DNA of 34,674 bases from Betaproteobacteria bacterium. Lineage in GTDB: Bacteria > Pseudomonadota > Gammaproteobacteria > Burkholderiales > Burkholderiaceae. The notes below the pieces were generated by a model, which was given only the letters and a program-made list of their open reading frames with translations, had not been told where the DNA came from and ran no database searches. This document shows, piece after piece, positions 5,877 to 27,425 of this stretch. Numbering within the stretch: the stretch's first letter is position 1; each line of letters starts with the position of its first letter. Both the position numbers and the translations under genes were made by a program. The stretch spans positions 1-34,674 of the forward strand of contig CANCIL010000013.1 of the NCBI GenBank assembly GCA_947378095.1, in the 5' to 3' direction.

Positions 5877-7036
5877 TCTTGGCGCAATGGTTGCAAGACG
5901 ATCTTGGGTTCTTGCGGGTATTTAACTACATTACCTTTAGAGCAGTGATGGCTACCGTTACCGCATTGTTGATTGGCCTTGCAGCAGGCCCTTGGGTGAT
6001 ACGTAAATTGACTGCTTTAAAAATGGGTCAAGCAGTTCGCACTGATGGACCTCAATCTCACTTAGTTAAATCAGGTACCCCAACCATGGGTGGGGTATTG
6101 ATTCTGATTGGTATTTTTGTCTCCTGTATGTTGTGGGCTGACCTCAGTAATCGCTTTATTTGGATTGTGATGATCGTGACCTTCGGATTTGGTCTGATTG
6201 GCTGGGTGGACGACTATCGTAAGGTTGCTCATAAAGATCCAAAGGGCATGGCTTCAAGAGAAAAATTTCTTTGGCAAACCTTGATTGGTTTGTTTGCTGC
6301 AATTTACTTAGCCTTCTCAGTTTCAGAAGTGAATAACCTGAAGGTATTGCAATTGTTTTATGAGTGGGTCAAGAGCGGTTTTGCCTTAGATCTGCCTGCT
6401 AAGACCAACCTACTCTTACCTTTTATAAAAGAAGTGAGCTATCCCCTGGGGATGATGGGATTCATCATCCTCAGTTACTTGGTAATTGTTGGTAGTAGTA
6501 ATGCAGTCAATCTCACTGATGGCTTAGATGGTTTAGTCATCATGCCCGTAATTTTGGTAGGTGCAGCATTGGGCGCATTTGCCTATGTCATGGGTAATGC
6601 TATCTACGCGAAGTATTTATTGTTCCCCTATATTCCGGGGGCCGGTGAGCTCATGATCTTCTGCGGTGCGATGGGCGGTGCGGGCCTAGCATTCCTTTGG
6701 TACAACACGCATCCAGCCCAGGTGTTTATGGGTGATGTTGGCGCATTGGCTTTGGGCGGTGCGCTAGGCACTATCGCTGTCATTGTACGACAAGAGATCG
6801 TTCTTTTTGTCATGGGCGGCATTTTTGTTGCCGAGACATTCTCTGTGATGTTGCAAGTGTTCTGGTTCAAATTTACCAAGAAGCGCTACGGAGAAGGGCG
6901 TCGAATTTTCCGCATGGCCCCATTGCATCATCACTTCGAATTAGGTGGCTGGAAAGAAACTCAAGTAGTGGTCCGTTTTTGGATCATCACCATTTTGTTG
7001 GTCTTAATTGGTTTATCTAGCTTGAAATTACGGTGA
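5867..7036 (+). CDS. mraY: phospho-MurNAc-pentapeptide transferase MraY
   Basis: MraY is the integral membrane enzyme that transfers phospho-MurNAc-pentapeptide from UDP to undecaprenyl phosphate, forming lipid I. The 389-residue protein has about ten hydrophobic segments and the family's catalytic motifs: [29 protein letters not shown] and the MAPLHHHFE histidine triad near the C-terminus. A strong ribosome site (GAGGAGG) lies inside the end of murF, and the start overlaps murF by 10 bases. A 13-base gap separates it from murD. Confidence 0.97.
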
Positions 7037-18506: not shown

Positions 18507-19010
18507 TTACTTAGGTTTGTTTTGAAGTAGTTTCTCAACAGCCTTGCGAAGGCTGGATTCGGGATCTAATTTTTGAAGCAAATCCTGCCAGGATGTTCTC
18601 GCAATCTGGTTTAAACCTTTGGGTTTACGGGGTATTCTGGCTTCAGCCCTGGCCTGAACATCCCAGCTTGAGGTCTGAGGCTTCACCTGGACTTTAATTG
18701 CCTTACAAATTAAGCCATTATTTCCTAACTCATTGATTAGACTAGGTAAAACTTGTTGCAAGCGGCTGGCGATGCTGGCATTGCTCACAAGCAAATACAG
18801 CTCGTTTTGCCCTCCTTGGCGCCATCCAGCCTCTATTTTTTGACTAAATTGGCCTAAATCAAGGGCTGTTAAGGCTCGCGTTAATTGGGATTTCACTTTG
18901 GCTAAATCTTCAGTCTTGGCCAAAATACCCCCTAAGCCCTCCGATTCACGTAAGTAATCAACCCACTCATGGGCTGTCTGATTACGTTTCTGTTTAGGGG
19001 CAAAGTTCAT
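18507..19010 (-). CDS. dciA: DUF721 protein, probable DciA helicase loader/operator
   Basis: DUF721 proteins include DciA, which loads or operates the replicative helicase DnaB in bacteria that lack DnaC. The 167-residue product has a short basic start, a central DUF721-like region with LYLLVSNASIASRLQQVLPSLINEL, and a Lys-rich C-terminus. The domain call comes from recognising this core and from the position: DUF721 genes often sit between lpxC and secA in betaproteobacteria. It is transcribed away from secA across a 53-base gap. No clear ribosome site is seen before its ATG. A DUF721 protein with a different role remains possible. Confidence 0.72.
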   Translation of the reverse strand: MNFAPKQKRNQTAHEWVDYLRESEGLGGILAKTEDLAKVKSQLTRALTALDLGQFSQKIEAGWRQGGQNELYLLVSNASIASRLQQVLPSLINELGNNGLICKAIKVQVKPQTSSWDVQARAEARIPRKPKGLNQIARTSWQDLLQKLDPESSLRKAVEKLLQNKPK

Positions 19011-19063: not shown

Positions 19064-21823
19064 ATGGTAATCGGTCTTCTTAAAACCCTGGTCGGCAGTC
19101 GTAACGACCGCCTCTTAAAGCAGTATCGCAAAGTAGTTGCTAAGGTCAATGCTTTTGAGCCCAGCCTGCAAGCTTTGGATGATGCTGCCTTGGCCGCAAA
19201 AACAGAGCAATTTAAAGCGCGTCTAGCTGCCGGTGAGGCTTTGGACGATATCGCGCCTGAAGCATTCGCAGTAGTTCGTGAGGCCAGCGTTCGAGTTATG
19301 AAGATGCGTCATTTTGATGCGCAGATCATCGGCGGCTTAGCTTTGCACCACGGCAAGATTGCCGAAATGGGAACGGGTGAAGGAAAAACCTTAACTGCTA
19401 CTTTGCCAGTGTATTTAAATGCGCTGACAGGTAAGGGTGTCCACGTTGTTACCGTGAATGACTATTTGGCTCAACGTGATGCCGAGTGGATGTCAAAGTT
19501 ATATAACTTCTTGGGTATGCAAGTGGGAATCAATCTGTCGCAGATGGATCACACTACGAAGCAAGCTGCATACGCTGCAGATATTACCTACGGAACCAAT
19601 AACGAATTTGGTTTCGATTATTTGCGCGATAACATGGTGCAAGATGCTGGTCAACGTGTTCAACGTGGCTTAGCTTATGCCATCGTTGATGAGGTCGATT
19701 CGATTTTGATTGACGAGGCGCGTACGCCATTGATCATTTCTGGTCAAGCAGATGACCATACTGATTTATATCTTAAGATTAATGCGCTTCCATCTTATTT
19801 AGATCTGCAAATTGGCGAAGAAAAAGCAGACGGAACCGGAGTTGAGAAGCCTGGCGACTACTGGGTCGATGAAAAGTCGCAACAGGTCTATTTGACAGAG
19901 CAAGGTCACGATAAGGCTGAGGCTGTGCTGGTGCAATTAGGGGCGTTAAATGATGGTAACTCCTTATATGCACCCCAAAATATTACTTTGATGCACCATG
20001 TGTACGCTGCCTTGCGCGCACATTCTTTATTTAACCGTGATCAACATTACGTTGTGCAAAACAATGAAGTGATCATTGTTGACGAATTTACTGGGCGCTT
20101 AATGCAGGGACGTCGCTGGTCTGACGGCTTGCACCAAGCGGTTGAGGCTAAAGAAGGCGTACCGATTCAGAATGAGAATCAAACTTTAGCCACCATTACT
20201 TTCCAGAATTATTTCCGCATGTACGGTAAGTTGGCGGGTATGACTGGTACGGCAGATACAGAGGCCTACGAATTCAAAGAAATTTATAGCCTAGAAACTG
20301 TTGTTATTCCTCCAAATAGGATTAGCCAGCGTAAGGATCGTCAGGATCAGATTTATAAGTCATCACGTGAGCGTTATGACGCAGTGATCAAAGATATTGA
20401 AGATTGCTATGAGCGGGGCCAACCAGTATTGGTTGGAACTACCTCAATTGAGAATTCTGAGTTGATTGCGAACTTATTAAATCAACGCAAAATGCCTCAT
20501 CAAGTGTTGAATGCAAAACAACATGCCCGTGAAGCAGAAATTATTGCGCAAGCAGGTCGTCCAAAGATGGTCACTATTGCTACTAATATGGCTGGTCGTG
20601 GAACGGATATTGTGCTCGGCGGTAATGTTGCCAAGCAATCAACCCTCATTGAGGCTGATGCATCTTTTTCAGATGCAGAAAAGTCAGCGAAGATCAAAGC
20701 GCTTCAAGACGAGTGGCAAAGTATTCATGACCAAGTATTAGCTGCAGGTGGTTTGCATATCATTGGTACAGAACGACATGAGAGCCGGCGTATTGATAAC
20801 CAATTGCGGGGTCGTTCAGGTCGTCAAGGTGACCCAGGTTCATCCCGTTTCTATCTCTCGTTAGATGACCCGTTACTGCGTATTTTTGCTGGTGATCGCC
20901 TGCGTGCAGTGATGGAGCGCTTGAAGATGCCGGATGGCGAGCCTATTGAAGCTGGTATGGTGACGCGTTCTATTGAGTCGGCTCAGCGCAAGGTTGAAGG
21001 CCGTAACTTTGATATTCGTAAGCAATTATTAGAGTATGACAACGTTGCCAATGATCAGCGCAAAGAAACCTATCGCTTAAGAAATGAAGTATTGGAAAGC
21101 AGCGATGTCGGTGAGTTAGTTGCTAACTTACGTGATGATGTTCTGCGCACCATCTGCGCCCTGTATGTTCCTCATGAATCCATGGAAGAGCAGTGGGATT
21201 TGGCTGGTCTAGAGAATGTGCTCGCCAGCGAGTGGGGCCTTACTGTAGATCTTCAAAAATGGGTTGAGAGTGCAGAATCGGTTGATGATTCTGAAATCGT
21301 AGAGCGTGTTCTACAAGCGGCTAAAGAAGTGTATGACTCTAAGGTGGAATTGTGCGGTCGTGAATCTTTTGCTGGTTTTGAGCGCTCCGTTCTCTTGTAC
21401 AGCTTAGACACCCATTGGCGTGAACATTTGGCGGCATTAGATCATTTGCGCCAGGGAATTCATTTACGTGGCTATGCCCAAAAAGATCCGAAACAAGAAT
21501 ATCGTCGCGAAGCCTTTGAGTTATATGGTGAGCTATTGGATGTGATTAAAAATGATGTTGTGAAAAGCATTATGACCGTGCAAATTCGTAGTGCTAGCGA
21601 ATTGGATCAAGCATCTGAATCGATGAATGAAGATTTGGCTAAGCTCTCTGACGTCAAATATCAACATGCTGAAGCAGAGGCTACTATTTCTAATGCTCCA
21701 GATTTAGGTGAGGTCGAATTGACTCCTGCCCCTCTTCGGGCAGGACCTAAAGTCGGTCGCAATGATCCTTGTCCTTGCGGTAGCGGCAAGAAATATAAAA
21801 ATTGCTGTGGCGCACTAGCGTAG
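19064..21823 (+). CDS. secA: preprotein translocase ATPase SecA
   Basis: SecA is the motor that pushes preproteins through SecYEG. The 919-residue protein begins with the [13 protein letters not shown] segment, and has Walker A MGTGEGKT (GTGEGKT at 103-109), the DEAD-like [16 protein letters not shown] motif, the [10 protein letters not shown] and [10 protein letters not shown] helicase motifs, and a C-terminal zinc-binding tail (Cys903, 905, 914 and 915) that contacts SecB. Length is normal. No Shine-Dalgarno sequence is visible in the T-rich bases before the ATG. I would expect argJ to be the next gene in related genomes; here the aldehyde oxidoreductase operon intervenes. Confidence 0.97.
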
Positions 21824-21845
21824 ACACTAATTTCTGCATTGCATC

Positions 21846-21874
21846 ATATGGGGGCCTAGCCCCCATATTTTTTT
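21846..21874 (+). terminator. strong intrinsic terminator after secA
   Basis: ATATGGGGGC (21846-21855) and GCCCCCATAT (21859-21868) form a perfect 10-bp stem with a 3-base loop, followed by six T residues. It lies 22 bases after the secA stop and should separate secA from the oxidoreductase operon. Confidence 0.92.
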
Positions 21875-21922
21875 AGGGCTTTCCCTAGTTATGTAGAGTG
21901 CTCTCTATCGTCGAGTATTAAT

Positions 21923-21952
21923 GCTTATATGCAAAAAATTGCATTTATAAGC
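21923..21952. promoter_or_regulatory. imperfect palindrome upstream of the aldehyde oxidoreductase operon
   Basis: Arms GCTTATATGCAA (from 21923) and TTGCATTTATAAGC (to 21952) are inverted repeats, differing only by two extra T residues in the right arm, around a 4-base A-rich centre. The element ends 13 bases before the aorA ATG, next to the AAAAGGA ribosome site. It directly follows a TATTAAT stretch that could be a -10 element, though no convincing -35 was found. It could be a dimeric repressor or activator site or an mRNA hairpin controlling translation. The TATA-containing half sites loosely recall molybdate/tungstate regulator boxes, which is only a suggestion. Confidence 0.55.
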
Positions 21953-21965
21953 AAAAGGAATCGGC

Positions 21966-22442
21966 ATGCAAAAGTCACTGCACATCAACGCAGATAAATG
22001 CACTGGTTGTCTTCAGTGTGAAATGGCCTGTAGCTATGAACACTACGGGGTGTTTAATACTTCAAAATCCCGTATCAAAGTATTTGAATTTCATAAGACG
22101 GGTAAGAAGGTGCCGTACACCTGTACCCAGTGTGATGAGGCTTGGTGCTTACAAGCTTGCCCTGTGGATGCGATTCGAGTTGATCTCATTACTGGTGCCA
22201 AAGTTGTTTCTGAGGACACCTGCGTTGGTTGCAAGGTATGCACCATCTCTTGCCCATTCGGAACAATCAACTACGTACAAGATACTGGTAAGGTGCAAAA
22301 GTGTGATCTTTGTGGCGGTGATCCAGCCTGTGCAACAGCTTGCCCAACACAAGCCATTACATATGTTGATGCTGACTGGACTGGTTTAGACAGGATGCGT
22401 GAATGGGCCGACAAACTCGGCAATCAAGATAACGCTAACTAA
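21966..22442 (+). CDS. aorA: polyferredoxin with four [4Fe-4S] clusters, AorA-like subunit
   Basis: This is the probable electron-transfer subunit of the aldehyde oxidoreductase encoded next. The 158-residue protein holds 16 cysteines in four ferredoxin groups: 12/15/18/22, 53/56/61/65, 86/89/92/96 and 113/116/122/126. That is enough for four [4Fe-4S] clusters, and no membrane segment or signal peptide is seen. Size and cluster number fit AorA of the Aromatoleum-type AOR, where this subunit is known to stack into a filament carrying AorB units; similar proteins also serve DMSO reductase and hydrogenase complexes. The ATG follows an AAGGA ribosome site. A 19-base gap separates it from the catalytic gene. 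Symbol assigned by analogy. Confidence 0.88.
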   Translation: MQKSLHINADKCTGCLQCEMACSYEHYGVFNTSKSRIKVFEFHKTGKKVPYTCTQCDEAWCLQACPVDAIRVDLITGAKVVSEDTCVGCKVCTISCPFGTINYVQDTGKVQKCDLCGGDPACATACPTQAITYVDADWTGLDRMREWADKLGNQDNAN

Positions 22443-22461
22443 AAAGCATAGGAAAAATATC

Positions 22462-24309
22462 ATGTCATGGGCTGGAAAACTTCTCCGCGTTAACTTAAGC
22501 AAGGGCACTTGCCAATCCGAACCCCTCAATATGGAGTGGGCTAAAGAGTATTTGGGATCCCGAGGTTTAGCTTCTAAGTATTTTGTTGAGGAAGTTGATC
22601 CAAAGGTCGATCCACTTTCTCCTGAAAATAAAATTATTTGGGCTACAGGTCCATTAACTGGGACTATGGCCTCTACTGGTGGTCGTTATACCGTAGTAAC
22701 TAAAGGCCCGTTAACTGGTGCAATCGCTTGCTCAAACTCTGGTGGCTATTGGGGTGCTGAACTAAAGATGGCCGGTTGGGACATGGTGATCTTTGAAGGG
22801 AAATCACCTAAGCCTGTCTACCTCTATATTGAAAACGATAAAGCTGAGTTATTAGATGCCTCTGATCTATGGGGTAGATCTGTGTGGGAGACGGAGCCCA
22901 CGATCAAGATCAAACATCAAGATCCCCAAATTCGGGTTTCTTGTATTGGACTCGCTGGTGAGAATCAAGTGTTATATGCCGCTATCGTGAATGATTTGCA
23001 TCGTGCTGCTGGTCGCTCCGGAGTTGGTGCGGTGATGGGCAGCAAGAACTTAAAAGCAGTTGCAGTTAGAGGAACCAAAGGTGTTGGCAATCTCAAAGAT
23101 CCTAAAGCGTTTATGGCAGCTACCACAGCTGCTAAGGCAGTATTGGCTGGTCATGCAGTAACTGGTCAAGGATTACCAACCTACGGCACCCAAGTATTGA
23201 TGAATGTGATTAATGAGGTAGGCGCTCTACCAACACGCAATCATCAAGATGTTCAATTTGAAGGTGCCAAGGATATTTCTGCTGAAGCGATGGCCGAACC
23301 ACGTGAATCCGATGGTAAGCCACACTTAGTAACCAACCAAGCATGCTTTGCTTGCACGATTGCTTGTGGACGCATCTCCAAAATTGATGACACCCATTTC
23401 TCTATTGAAAATAAACCACAACATATGCATGCTTCAGGTGGCCTTGAGTATGAAGCCGCCTGGGCTCTTGGTGCCGCCAATGGCGTCAATGATTTAGAGA
23501 CATTGCAATACGCTAATCAGTTATGTAATGAACAAGGTTTAGATCCAATTTCTTTTGGGGCAACTGTTGGTGCTGTGATGGAGCTTTATGAAATGGGTGT
23601 CCTAACCAAAGAGCAGATTGGAATTGAGGCGCCATTTGGTTCGGCCAAGGCCCTTTGCTATCTTGCTGAAATTACAACTGAAGGCACCGGTTTTGGAAAA
23701 GAAATGGGTCTTGGTTCAGCACGTCTTACGAAAAAATATGGTCATCCAGATCTGTCAATGAGTGTAAAAGGCCAGGAGTTTCCAGCCTATGATGGTCGCG
23801 TGATTCAAGGTATTGGTTTGGCTTATGCAACCTCCAATCGTGGTGCTTGTCATCTGCGTGGCTACACCATCGCTTCCGAAGTTTTAGGCATTCCTGTAAA
23901 AACAGAGCCTGCCGATACGAATGGCAAACCAGAGTTGGTGAAAGCCTTCCAAGATGCCACTGCTGCATTTGACTCGGCAGGTATTTGCATCTTCACAAGC
24001 TTTGCATGGACCTTAGCTGATGTTGCTCCACAACTTCAGGCAGCTTGTGGGGAAGAGTTTACGGTTGAAAACTTAACAACTATCGGCGAGCGTATTTGGA
24101 ATATGGAGCGCGATTTTAATAACCGTGCTGGCTTTACTAATAAAGATGACAAATTGCCTAAACGTTTGATGACTGAAGCAGCTAAGACTGGCCCTGGAAA
24201 AGGTTCAGTCAGCGGTCTAGATAAGATGCTACCTGAGTACTACAAGGTTCGTGGATGGGATGCTGAGGGGCGCCCTAGTGCCGAAACATTGAAGCGCTTA
24301 GGTCTTTGA
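22462..24309 (+). CDS. aorB: tungsten-containing aldehyde oxidoreductase, catalytic subunit (AorB-like)
   Basis: Enzymes of this family oxidise aldehydes to carboxylic acids, or run in reverse, at a tungsten bis-pterin site. The 615-residue product has the N-terminal MSWAGKLLRVNLS segment and the cofactor-binding stretch TGPLTGTMASTGGRY. Ligands for one [4Fe-4S] cluster are Cys295, Cys298, Cys302 (CFACTIAC) and Cys509. An EYE motif lies at 329-331 and DGRVIQGIGLAYATSNRGACHLR ends in His464; these fit the Glu and His near the tungsten in the Pyrococcus enzyme. The frame is open back to 22399, but the ATG at 22462 is chosen: it has an AGGA site upstream and begins like known AORs. Tungsten over molybdenum and the substrate are inferred from family membership. 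Confidence 0.93.
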   Translation: MSWAGKLLRVNLSKGTCQSEPLNMEWAKEYLGSRGLASKYFVEEVDPKVDPLSPENKIIWATGPLTGTMASTGGRYTVVTKGPLTGAIACSNSGGYWGAELKMAGWDMVIFEGKSPKPVYLYIENDKAELLDASDLWGRSVWETEPTIKIKHQDPQIRVSCIGLAGENQVLYAAIVNDLHRAAGRSGVGAVMGSKNLKAVAVRGTKGVGNLKDPKAFMAATTAAKAVLAGHAVTGQGLPTYGTQVLMNVINEVGALPTRNHQDVQFEGAKDISAEAMAEPRESDGKPHLVTNQACFACTIACGRISKIDDTHFSIENKPQHMHASGGLEYEAAWALGAANGVNDLETLQYANQLCNEQGLDPISFGATVGAVMELYEMGVLTKEQIGIEAPFGSAKALCYLAEITTEGTGFGKEMGLGSARLTKKYGHPDLSMSVKGQEFPAYDGRVIQGIGLAYATSNRGACHLRGYTIASEVLGIPVKTEPADTNGKPELVKAFQDATAAFDSAGICIFTSFAWTLADVAPQLQAACGEEFTVENLTTIGERIWNMERDFNNRAGFTNKDDKLPKRLMTEAAKTGPGKGSVSGLDKMLPEYYKVRGWDAEGRPSAETLKRLGL

Positions 24310-24319
24310 GGTTGCATCA

Positions 24320-25573
24320 ATGAAGCATGTCATTTTGGGTAATGGCCCAGCCGGCGTCATTGCTGCAGAGACCATTCGCAAGCGTGCGCCGCATGACCAA
24401 ATCGTCATGATTGGTTGTGAAGATGCGCCACCATATTCCCGGATGGCTATTCCTTATTTATTGATGGGGAACATTCAAGAGCCGGGGACTTATCTTCGAA
24501 AAGACGCTGATCATTTTGAGAAATTAAAGATCGAGCAAATTCGAGGCAAGGCATCTTCAGTTGATTTGAAGGCAAAGAAGATAGAGTTGGATGGTCAGTC
24601 TATTGCGTTCGATAAGTTATTAGTAGCAACTGGTTCAGTACCGGTTCAACCACCTATTCCGGGAATTGATCTTCCTGGTGTTCATCCCTGTTGGACCTTG
24701 GAAGATGCGCGAGCAATTGCTAAATTGGCAAAACCAGGATCACGAGTTTTACAAATGGGCGCTGGTTTTATTGGCTGCATTATCTTGGAGGCGCTTGCTA
24801 GTCGTAAAGTTAAGCTGACTGTGGTGGAAATGGGTGATCGTATGGTTCCCCGCATGATGACTGCTGTTGCTGGGGGCATGATTAAAAAGTGGGTTCAAGA
24901 AAAAGGCGTACAGGTCTTTACTGATACCAAAGTGGAATCTATAGCGCAGACAGGATCCTGTTTGACGGTTAAGCTTTCGAATGGAAAAGCGCTCGAAGTG
25001 GATTTAGTTATTTCAGCTACAGGCGTTAAACCCAATATTACATTTCTGAAGTCATCGGGCCTTGATATACATACTGGCATTTTGGTGAATGATCAGATGC
25101 AAACTTCCCATCCTGATGTCTATGCTGCTGGTGATGTCACCGAGAGTATTGATTTTTCTACAGGTGAGCGCATCGTCAATGCTATTCAACCGAATGCGGC
25201 TGACCAAGCCAGAATTGCTGCGATCAGTATGACTGGCGGAGATGCACAAAGTTTAGGCGCGCTGCAGATTAACGTTTTAGATACTCTGGGATTAATCTCT
25301 TCTTCATTTGGTTTATGGGCAGGTGCTAAAGGCGGTGACCATATTGAGTTAGTCGATCCAGATACATATAAATACCTGCGTCTTGAGTTTCTAGGAGACG
25401 TGCTGGTAGGAGCGACCTGTTTGGGAACAACGGAACATATTGGGGTATTACGCGGCCTCATTCAAGGAAAGATTCCACTAGGTGATTGGAAAGAAACTCT
25501 CTTAGGGGATCCAACAAAAGTAATGGATGCTTACTTAGCTGCAGGACAAGCACAATCGGCCTGGATGAATTAA
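24320..25573 (+). CDS. aorC: FAD-dependent NAD(P)H oxidoreductase subunit, AorC-like
   Basis: This is a pyridine-nucleotide-disulfide-oxidoreductase-fold protein, probably linking the AOR electron chain to NAD(P). The 417-residue product has an FAD-binding ILGNGPAG loop at 5-12, the LLVATGS strand, an NAD(P)-binding MGAGFIG loop at 146-152, and the second FAD motif VYAAGDVTES. No redox-active CxxxxC pair is seen near the flavin, so it is not a disulfide reductase; it resembles the nitrite-reductase/NADH-oxidase branch. The arrangement Fe-S protein, catalytic subunit, FAD subunit matches AorABC of Aromatoleum. It lies 10 bases after aorB and 9 before the MoaD-like gene. Confidence 0.87.
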   Translation: MKHVILGNGPAGVIAAETIRKRAPHDQIVMIGCEDAPPYSRMAIPYLLMGNIQEPGTYLRKDADHFEKLKIEQIRGKASSVDLKAKKIELDGQSIAFDKLLVATGSVPVQPPIPGIDLPGVHPCWTLEDARAIAKLAKPGSRVLQMGAGFIGCIILEALASRKVKLTVVEMGDRMVPRMMTAVAGGMIKKWVQEKGVQVFTDTKVESIAQTGSCLTVKLSNGKALEVDLVISATGVKPNITFLKSSGLDIHTGILVNDQMQTSHPDVYAAGDVTESIDFSTGERIVNAIQPNAADQARIAAISMTGGDAQSLGALQINVLDTLGLISSSFGLWAGAKGGDHIELVDPDTYKYLRLEFLGDVLVGATCLGTTEHIGVLRGLIQGKIPLGDWKETLLGDPTKVMDAYLAAGQAQSAWMN

Positions 25574-25582
25574 GCTTTAGCC

Positions 25583-25837
25583 ATGCAAGTTACCTTAAAG
25601 TTGTTTGCTAGTTTGACTAGCTATCTCCCTCCGAATAAAAAAAATGGGATTGAGGCTGATATTGAAGTCGCTGAAGGCAGCACGATTGGCGACATGATTG
25701 AGCTTTATAAGATTCCCAGTAAATCGGCTCATTTGGTGATGGTGAATGGGGTATATATCAAGCCCGAGGAACGCAACCAATATGTCCTCAAAGCAAATGA
25801 TGCATTGGCAATTTGCCCGCCTGTCGCAGGGGGCTAA
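25583..25837 (+). CDS. MoaD/ThiS-like sulfur carrier protein of the AOR operon
   Basis: The 84-residue product has the ubiquitin-like beta-grasp pattern of MoaD/ThiS: MQVTLKLFASL at the start, VEV-like hydrophobic strands, VMVNGVYI, and the C-terminal ICPPVAGG tail. The terminal Gly-Gly is the residue pair that is adenylated and thiocarboxylated in molybdopterin synthase. Its place in the operon suggests a dedicated role in making or inserting the tungsten-pterin cofactor. The general MoaD for molybdenum cofactor would be expected elsewhere in the genome. No MoeB/ThiF-type activating enzyme is seen in the window. Confidence 0.85.
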   Translation: MQVTLKLFASLTSYLPPNKKNGIEADIEVAEGSTIGDMIELYKIPSKSAHLVMVNGVYIKPEERNQYVLKANDALAICPPVAGG

Positions 25838-25859
25838 GCCCTCGGTAGTACTGAGCTAA

Positions 25860-26156
25860 ATGCCACAATATTCAAGAGAGATGGGCTGTACCCCAGAAGA
25901 TCTTGTTCGCTGGCTACCACAAGCCTTGGGGAGTCTTTACCCGCAGACTAGTCTGATCATTGATGGAAATGTTTTACTGAGCGCTGTCAAACCTAAGTTG
26001 GAGGTGATGGGTGCCAGTAAGCCAGCCCGTAAAATCGCCCTCTTAGAGATCCCTATCTTGGAGCTAAAGCTCTGTTTTTCTGAAAATTGGTCTGCTAGTG
26101 AATGCGAGGACGCTTTAAAGCGATTTGATCTTTATACTCGTAGAGGTGGGGGTTAG
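25860..26156 (+). CDS. uncharacterised small protein of the AOR operon, C-terminal RRGGG
   Basis: I cannot assign a function to this 98-residue protein. It starts MPQYSREMGCTPEDLVRWLP, contains a stretch with KPARKIALLEIPILELKLCF, and ends FDLYTRRGGG. It has two or three Cys residues without a metal-binding pattern, and no membrane segment or signal peptide. The end recalls small hypothetical proteins of Burkholderiales with the same FDLY..RGGG tail. It is the fifth gene of the AOR operon, 22 bases after the MoaD-like gene, and could take part in cofactor assembly or enzyme maturation; the Gly-rich tail even allows a carrier-like role. Coding is supported by position, codon usage like its neighbours and the conserved-looking tail. 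No clear ribosome site is visible. Confidence 0.72.
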   Translation: MPQYSREMGCTPEDLVRWLPQALGSLYPQTSLIIDGNVLLSAVKPKLEVMGASKPARKIALLEIPILELKLCFSENWSASECEDALKRFDLYTRRGGG

Positions 26157-26189
26157 TTCGACTCCTTTACTTTCTTTAATCAGCGCTCT

Positions 26190-27425
26190 ATGACAGTTAA
26201 CTTAGCTCTTCCTCAAAAAGCCGAACTCAAACCTATTGCAGGTTTTGAGATGGGTATCGCTCAAGCAGGTATTAAAAAAGCCAATCGCAAAGATTTGTTA
26301 GTGATGACCTTAGTGCCAGGGTCTCAAGTGGCTGGCGTTTTTACCCTCAATCGTTTTTGCGCAGCGCCGGTTCAGGTTTGTCGTGAGCATCTAGCTCAAG
26401 AGGGTCGTAAGGGAGAAATTCGTGCGCTGGTTGTTAATACCGGTAATGCGAATGCTGGTACGGGAGAGCAAGGCATGAAGCATGCCTTAGAGACATGTGC
26501 TGCATTAGCAAAAGATCTCAAACTGAATCCAGAACAAATTTTGCCTTTCTCCACGGGTGTGATATTGGAGCCTTTACCGGTAGAGAAAATTATTACTGCT
26601 TTGCCTAAAGCTATTGCTAACTTAGGTGCAGACAATTGGCTTGATGCGGCTGAGGCCATCATGACTACCGACACTCAGCCTAAGGCCTCATCAGCGACAG
26701 TACAGACGCCTGAAGGCCAAGTGACGATGACCGGTATCTGTAAGGGTGCTGGCATGATTCATCCTAATATGGCAACGATGTTGGGTTTCATTGCAAGCGA
26801 TGTTGGGTTTGCACCTGGATTATTAAGCAATCTCACTCGTGAGGTGGCAGACCAATCATTTAATGCCATTACGATTGACGGTGATACGTCGACCAATGAC
26901 TCTTTCATCATTATGGCGACCGGCCAATCTTCAGTTCAGATTCAATCTACTCAAGATCCAAGCTATGCAATAGTACGTGATGCATTAATAGCGCTAGCCC
27001 GAAAATTAGCGCAGATGATCGTGCGTGATGGAGAGGGCGCAACTAAATTTATGACTATTGAGGTGGTGGGTGGTAAAACTGCAGATGAATGCCGTTTAGT
27101 GGCCAAAGCCGTTGCTCATTCACCTTTGGTTAAGACGGCCTTTTTTGCTAGTGATCCCAATCTAGGCCGTATCCTGGCGGCTATTGGTTATGCCGGCATT
27201 ACTGACTTAGATGTGGGTAACGTGCAGATGTGGTTAGGTGATGTATGGGTTGCCAAAGATGGTGGCCGAAACCCTAGCTATCAAGAGGCTGATGGACAAC
27301 GCGTTATGGAAGCTTCAGAGATTACTGTCAAGATTGATCTTGGGCGTGGTAAGGCTACCCAAACGATGTGGACTTGTGATTTATCGCATGACTATGTCTC
27401 AATTAATGCAGACTATCGTTCTTAA
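26190..27425 (+). CDS. argJ: glutamate N-acetyltransferase / amino-acid acetyltransferase ArgJ
   Basis: ArgJ transfers the acetyl group from N-acetylornithine to glutamate in the cyclic arginine pathway and may also use acetyl-CoA. The 411-residue precursor is cleaved by itself at the conserved ATML site. Here [16 protein letters not shown] places the nucleophile at Thr196, giving alpha and beta chains of about 195 and 216 residues. Other marks are [26 protein letters not shown] and the C-terminal [10 protein letters not shown]. The gene follows the AOR operon by 33 bases with no terminator and only a weak ribosome site, so it may be partly read through from upstream. Confidence 0.96.

Follow-up and report, generated by a model that had tools for sequence, protein, structure and literature searches.

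A five-gene aldehyde oxidoreductase operon of the Aromatoleum tungsten type in Polynucleobacter, with a GGG-tailed accessory protein and a variable secA–argJ slot

Introduction

The aldehyde oxidoreductase (AOR) of Aromatoleum aromaticum, AORAa, contained tungsten (W) and no trace of molybdenum (Mo) and uses NAD, and its genes aorABC are described together with aorD and aorE, both of which are said to resemble MoaD (PMC6365974; statements on this and the other papers cited refer to portions of each source). The class of three-subunit W enzymes has been characterised once so far (PMC13328260). AOR-linked neighbourhoods of MoaD, AOR, a pyridine disulfide oxidoreductase, a 4Fe-S ferredoxin and MoeB were earlier proposed to serve the W cofactor and to be possibly mobile (Iyer, Burroughs and Aravind 2006, PMC1779556). 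Here we analyse a stretch of 34,674 nucleotides (the window; contig CANCIL010000013.1 of assembly GCA_947378095.1) from a Polynucleobacter metagenome-assembled genome (MAG; 77% complete), in which an original prediction, made from the letters alone, had placed a five-gene W-dependent AOR operon of the Aromatoleum type, aorABCDE.

Similarity of AorB, AorA and AorC to the Aromatoleum complex

We read the five genes as encoding an AorABC-type W aldehyde:NAD oxidoreductase together with two factors for its assembly, with a probability of about 0.85. Among solved structures, AorB had its best solved match in the A. aromaticum complex (8c0z_A; E 0), with 75.3% identity over 615 residues without gaps. 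Its bit scores were 1059.8 to AORAa versus 706.3 to the next solved sequence, and by these scores among solved sequences a grouping of the catalytic subunit with a non-aldehyde branch of the family did not occur. AorB contains the Pfam domains AFOR_N and AFOR_C, and the cluster cysteines (C295, C298, C302 and C509) and the Glu and His positions anticipated for it (E331 and the conserved H464) are all present. A contig scan for relatives, in which at least 590 of 596 matched stretches were confirmed, left 80 loci, and alignment of their AorB proteins with that of the window (81 rows) revealed R75, N92, G94, R181, A182, C295, C298, C302, E331, D361, H464, Y468, D504, C509, F511 and F514 to be invariant in all 81; the window protein thus retains the positions for the cluster, the pterin and the substrate. 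His464 aligns to residue 448 of 1aor, which we take to be the active-site histidine of the Pyrococcus enzyme. Among the 18 AorB residues named in PMC10413684, which include Y468, F511 and F514 as substrate-contact residues of the broad-range enzyme, 16 are identical here; V510 is replaced by Ile, and His484, placed near the metal in that paper, by Ala. Position 484 is His in none of the 81 proteins and His464 is found in every one, and a numbering slip in the paper is the likely explanation, not a loss in the window protein; it is not proved, since residue 484 of 8c0z is also His.

The best solved match of AorA was 8c0z_C (E 8.3e-83), in an alignment spanning residues 1–152 of 158 with the C-terminal segment included, and the 16 Cys expected of this polyferredoxin subunit were counted, enough for four 4Fe-4S clusters. 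The C-terminal WTG...M..WA.K.GNQ-like segment recurs with a few variants among the 79 AorA proteins and, judged by its sequence, is probably the one linked to filament formation. AorC matched 8c0z_E best (E 1.2e-161), carries the Pfam domain Pyr_redox_2 and has R41 and M42. The match of three adjacent proteins to three subunits that form a single solved complex is, at the level of sequence similarity, not due to chance, and the assignment to the Aromatoleum type in the original prediction is supported by the three subunits, the active-site residues and the same gene set.

AorD and AorE

Pfam, a structure model and a fold comparison all identify AorD as a MoaD-like beta-grasp protein; it has the GG expected at its C-terminus, and aorD ends AGG in 78 of 78 loci. 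AorE ends GGG at the stop codon in all 75 loci where it was found, as do 206 of 207 AorE homologues listed (98 from one listing and 120 listed of 317 from another, partly shared), the exception being a 54-aa fragment; a homologue in L187 ends RGGS. In a 40-row alignment, with 18–65% identity to the window protein, the three tail glycines were the sole invariant columns. The protein had been described as small and unknown; it is small and has no confident family, but belongs to a conserved GGG-tailed family.

Searches of the window AorE gave no Pfam or NCBIfam match, DUF1952 (PF09189) included. When 50 AorE members were scanned against Pfam, ThiS was matched by none, and 11 families were matched by one member each, the best being DUF6210 (E 0.0018) and DUF1952 (E 0.015). 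A scan of the class for DUF1952 yielded 36 matches in 34 of 369 genomes at E up to 0.1, of which the best two were AorE loci, one of them over the cut-off, and the other 34 lay elsewhere and were weak; two homologues (P0181 and P0202) carry PF09189 in precomputed annotation, yet gave none in our direct scan. The AorE family is thus without a confident Pfam or NCBIfam match. Its predicted model has the order beta-alpha-beta-beta-beta-beta-alpha, which is not that of a beta-grasp, and residues 96–98 have a predicted confidence (pLDDT) below 50. AorE as a plain MoaD paralogue was set aside on this predicted fold and the lack of ThiS matches.

Foldseek with the AorE model gave a best E of 0.047, and therefore we assign no fold from Foldseek alone. 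An AorE profile found nothing among solved sequences at E up to 10, phmmer with the homologue P0181 found a PII protein only (E 0.65), and tblastn of AorE against plasmids found nothing. In the MoaD-related Thermus protein 1v8c, residues 1–87 match AorD and residues 86–165 match AorE; AorD resembles its first domain and AorE, weakly, its second. Compared with the nearest relative in the set, Polynucleobacter sp. 15G-AUS-farblos (L047), whose AorB identity rounds to 100% and by which the window is assigned to this genus, the ratio of nonsynonymous to synonymous substitution rates (dN/dS) was 0.005 for AorA, 0.006 for AorB, 0.029 for AorC, 0.000 for AorD and 0.149 for AorE, the last evolving much faster than AorD.

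AorE neighbourhoods and co-occurrence with AOR

AorE was found in 70 of the 80 loci by tblastn and calling of open reading frames (ORFs) and in 75 by profile. Among the five loci where the profile did not find it, the sequence stops within aorC in two (L055 and L077) and 1.8 kb past aorD in one (L083), and in the remaining two (L060 and L066) AorE is either truly absent or undetected. Across the class, AorE is present in 39 of 369 genomes, and aorD lies within the 1.5-kb flank of AorE in 26 of 29 loci drawn (the window's own excluded), in L183 on the opposite strand. The loci without aorD in this flank are L190, L199 and L202. In L190 (G588; L230:6270-8241), AorE stands away from AOR and immediately follows the genes of an ABC permease and a TOBE-domain ATPase, a pair that we read as a transporter of the molybdate/tungstate type. 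In L199 (G584; L231), AorE is followed by NuoE/F-like genes and a molybdopterin oxidoreductase gene. AOR was found on other contigs in each of these two genomes. L236 has an E1-like gene of the ThiF family next to aorE, and in L232/L187 such a gene lies within a few genes of it. In L233, moaA leads a cluster continued by aorABCD and two consecutive AorE copies (5944-6561), both ending GGG.

Comparison of genomes with and without AorE revealed AFOR_C, of any clade, in 35 of 38 positives versus 0 of 20 negatives (Fisher p about 1e-12), the negatives being the first listed and not a random draw. The three positives without AFOR_C are G607 and G731, whose AorE matches contain a stop, and G834 (78% complete). 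On the Thermus plasmid pTT27 an AOR-like gene was seen, with no MoaD listed beside it in an incomplete gene table.

Distribution of the operon and states of the secA–argJ slot

The operon is not confined to this genome. The 80 loci, in which first-pass tblastn and ORF calling found 79 AorA, 80 AorB, 79 AorC and 78 AorD, belong to Polynucleobacter, Limnohabitans, Hydrogenophaga, Tepidimonas and others. When the GTDB family was sampled evenly, 14 of 398 genomes and 2 of 25 genera gave a match, and within the genus 43 of 186 Polynucleobacter genomes matched (31 of 144 when only the better quality level is counted); aor is a patchy accessory trait in Polynucleobacter. Among the 43 positives, aorB is in pieces with stops in G304 and G094, and G264 has stops inside the match (L016–L022, L011); in these three genomes the MoeA-domain matches are likewise split up or cut short. 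These may be reduced-genome symbionts, and parallel decay of enzyme and cofactor genes in them is possible. Searches of the open-licence PMC literature found nothing that joins Polynucleobacter with aldehyde ferredoxin oxidoreductase, or aldehyde ferredoxin oxidoreductase with freshwater and Limnohabitans, no mention of DUF1952, and AorE with tungsten only in the Aromatoleum work; Polynucleobacter and tungsten occur together in two papers.

The operon lies between secA and argJ in the window, in 12 loci (L023–L032, L036 and L047; the contig of L024 breaks off within argJ) and in G149, G176 and G259. Nine other loci with AorB identity of at least 85% (L033–L035, L037–L041 and L044), titled Polynucleobacter or betaproteobacterial or Burkholderiaceae MAGs, have neither secA nor argJ in the stretch of flank covered. 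In 13 AOR-negative Polynucleobacter genomes, picked from the family-sample listing and not at random, the same slot holds a two-gene Mo cassette in seven (G012, G064, G074, G084, G111, G142 and G170) and is empty, with secA adjoining argJ, in six (G033, G135, G163, G182, G188 and G200); it is also empty in four AOR-positive genomes with AOR elsewhere (G206, G253, G329 and G334). The large subunit of the cassette had its best solved match in an aldehyde dehydrogenase large subunit (8gy3_C, E 1.6e-83), with every NCBIfam score below cut-off, and by this sequence match the cassette appears akin to aldehyde dehydrogenase. None of the loci examined held aor and the Mo cassette together in the slot.

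In a tree of argJ and DUF815 DNA (32 rows), the Mo state appears in three separate places, and the aor, Mo and empty states (empty taken as one state) need at least seven changes, a count made without a shuffled control; this is a quick tree of one flank only, with a long-branch warning. We regard the alternation of W and Mo genes in one slot as a lead and not as proof. A 2Fe-2S xanthine-oxidase-family subunit, 39–41% identical to that of the cassette, was also seen upstream of aor, in the flanking DNA of eight loci, seven from Hydrogenophaga and one from Burkholderiales (L063, L068, L069, L076, L086, L089, L090 and L099).

Cofactor genes and tungsten uptake

A single contig of the MAG carries moaA, mobA and a gene with a MoeA domain. 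Absence of the pterin pathway, which would have spoken against the original prediction, was therefore not observed, the pathway being at least partly seen in this 77%-complete MAG; MoeA_N was found in 27 of 27 genomes. Three ThiS-family matches occur in 9 of 11 AOR-positive Polynucleobacter genomes with aorB not in pieces (the MAG, where one match is aorD, and G206 have two) against two matches in 12 of 13 AOR-negative genomes (one in G163), and on these matches aorD is an addition to the general pterin pathway. A search for PF12849 (TupA-type) found no match in the MAG, versus 26 of 27 genomes overall. One such protein was checked, that of the AOR-positive G149; it is TupA-like (243.9 bits to NF041772, below the cut-off of 400), with a tungstate-binding protein as best solved match. 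W-type uptake was rejected as a marker of AOR, since PF12849 and PF13531 matches occur in AOR-positive and AOR-negative genomes alike.

Published co-expression data agree with the earlier assignment of the last two genes to cofactor assembly: aorABC expressed alone gave 4.5 U/mg with a tabulated W content of 1.06, aorABCDE gave 16 U/mg with 0.39, and aorABCDE plus tungstate gave 85 U/mg with 1.52 (PMC9295118). From these figures, AorDE would seem to act in making a competent cofactor and not in metal loading alone.

Operon layout and surroundings

All five genes are intact and on the plus strand (Table 1), at the coordinates predicted, and the gaps of 19, 10, 9 and 22 bases lie within the predicted range of 9–22. 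The mechanically listed aorB ORF opens at GTG 22399, overlapping aorA; ATG 22462 aligns to residue 1 of 8c0z and is the likely start on this alignment. A second, weaker terminator-like hairpin lies at the aorE stop codon, so that transcription may run on into argJ, which starts 33 bases after that stop. The terminator scan gave 6 sites in the region versus 4.7 expected from shuffling, and these sites are consensus matches, not proof. No RNA family reached its Rfam gathering score in the window, and no regulator was seen adjoining the operon within it.

A GAF/Fis-type regulator (one protein cluster, one member checked) occurs near aor in 33 of the 80 loci. Between lpxC and secA, a 167-aa ORF (18507-19010, minus strand) without Pfam or NCBIfam match is kept by relatives at 59–89% identity.

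Table 1. Features of the aor locus in the window, and the cassette found at the same site in relatives
Feature	Position	Strand	Description
secA	19064-21823		flanks operon upstream
Variable slot secA–argJ	21824-26189		holds aor, two-gene Mo cassette or nothing in relatives
Intrinsic-terminator-like hairpin after secA	21846-21868	+	10-pair stem then T6; pattern scan
aorA	21966-22442	+	158 aa, 16 Cys
aorB	22462-24309	+	615 aa; likely ATG start at 22462
aorC	24320-25573	+	417 aa, FAD/NAD subunit
aorD	25583-25837	+	84 aa, MoaD/ThiS-like beta-grasp sulfur carrier, tail VAGG
aorE	25860-26156	+	98 aa, GGG-tailed; predicted beta-alpha-beta-beta-beta-beta-alpha fold
argJ	26190-27425		flanks operon downstream
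Mo cassette (relatives)	L283–L289 (G084, G170, G064, G074, G111, G142, G012)		152-aa 2Fe-2S and ~707-aa molybdopterin subunits; xanthine-oxidase family

Discussion

From the genes, homology, residues, tails and neighbourhoods observed, we infer the metal, the substrate and the chemistry of AorE as follows. AorB would oxidise aldehydes to acids at a W-bis-pyranopterin centre, and electrons would pass from its 4Fe-4S cluster through the four clusters of AorA to the FAD in AorC and on to NAD, while AorA may polymerise via its C-terminal helix into a short filament. AorD would be a MoaD-like protein dedicated to carrying sulfur for the pterin, and AorE together with AorD may make or deliver the finished cofactor; the GGG tail would then be its working end and might be activated by an E1-like enzyme. 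The analogy with Aromatoleum suggests aldehyde disposal as the physiological role.

That the enzyme is loaded with Mo, or with either metal, in this host seems to us improbable: the host keeps the general Mo cofactor pathway, the slot is occupied by a Mo-type enzyme in relatives and no TupA-type match was found in the MAG, but AORAa held W alone of the two metals (PMC6365974), the relative G149 has a TupA-like protein, and aorD is an extra MoaD-like gene by the three versus two ThiS-family matches. We give somewhat more room, while still thinking it unlikely, to a complex that serves one catabolic aldehyde (e.g. phenylacetaldehyde) and not broad disposal, or that runs toward acid reduction; AORAa is induced on phenylalanine, and with strong donors or H2 it reduces acids (PMC9295118, PMC13328260), whereas in the window no catabolic genes adjoin the operon, its neighbours being secA and argJ, and the substrate-contact residues Y468, F511 and F514 are retained.

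The function of AorE is more evenly disputed. It could be a chaperone docking on apo-AorB or AorD, whose GGG tail is a flexible docking or capping element that is never activated, and we hold this to be only slightly less than an even bet. The predicted non-beta-grasp fold, the low confidence of residues 96–98, the faster evolution than AorD and the RGGS end of the L187 homologue fit such a protein, while the tail glycines as sole invariant columns, ending at the stop codon, and the E1-like gene adjoining aorE in L236 argue against it. A bolder proposal, which we consider doubtful, makes AorE a second, non-beta-grasp carrier in the assembly of the W cofactor, its GGG activated by a MoeB-type E1 as in MoaD and paired with AorD (the fused form surviving in Thermus), and joins to this an exchange of W and Mo aldehyde-oxidising cassettes in one slot in Polynucleobacter. 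If AorE were activated in this way, the substrates of E1 enzymes would extend beyond ubiquitin-like folds.

The operon places a three-subunit W enzyme, from a class with a single characterised case so far, in a genus of lake bacteria; the AorE family is a concrete candidate for those steps of W-cofactor assembly about which little is known, and the secA–argJ slot offers a natural comparison of W and Mo among near relatives. The operon shares gene content, subunits, catalytic residues and the AorA C-terminal segment with AorABCDE of A. aromaticum EbN1 (8c0z), which likewise has a MoaD-like aorD and a small aorE, AorE being likened through the published description and not by sequence; it differs in lying between secA and argJ in Polynucleobacter and in being known from its genes alone. 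Class III tungsten-containing oxidoreductases (clade 87 of the 2026 classification; PMC13328260) have the same large pterin, Fe-S and FAD subunits, a likeness of subunit makeup and not of tree placement, and the main text of that paper never uses the word MoaD. The Thermus thermophilus protein 1v8c has its AorD- and AorE-like parts in the same order as the genes. The neighbourhoods of Iyer, Burroughs and Aravind come, in the portions of PMC1779556 drawn on here, with no mention of AorE, a GGG tail or a slot shared with a Mo enzyme. Set beside these systems, the enzyme is of a known type, and the new leads, which are not proofs, are the definition of AorE as a GGG-tailed family linked to AOR, and the alternation of cassettes in the slot.

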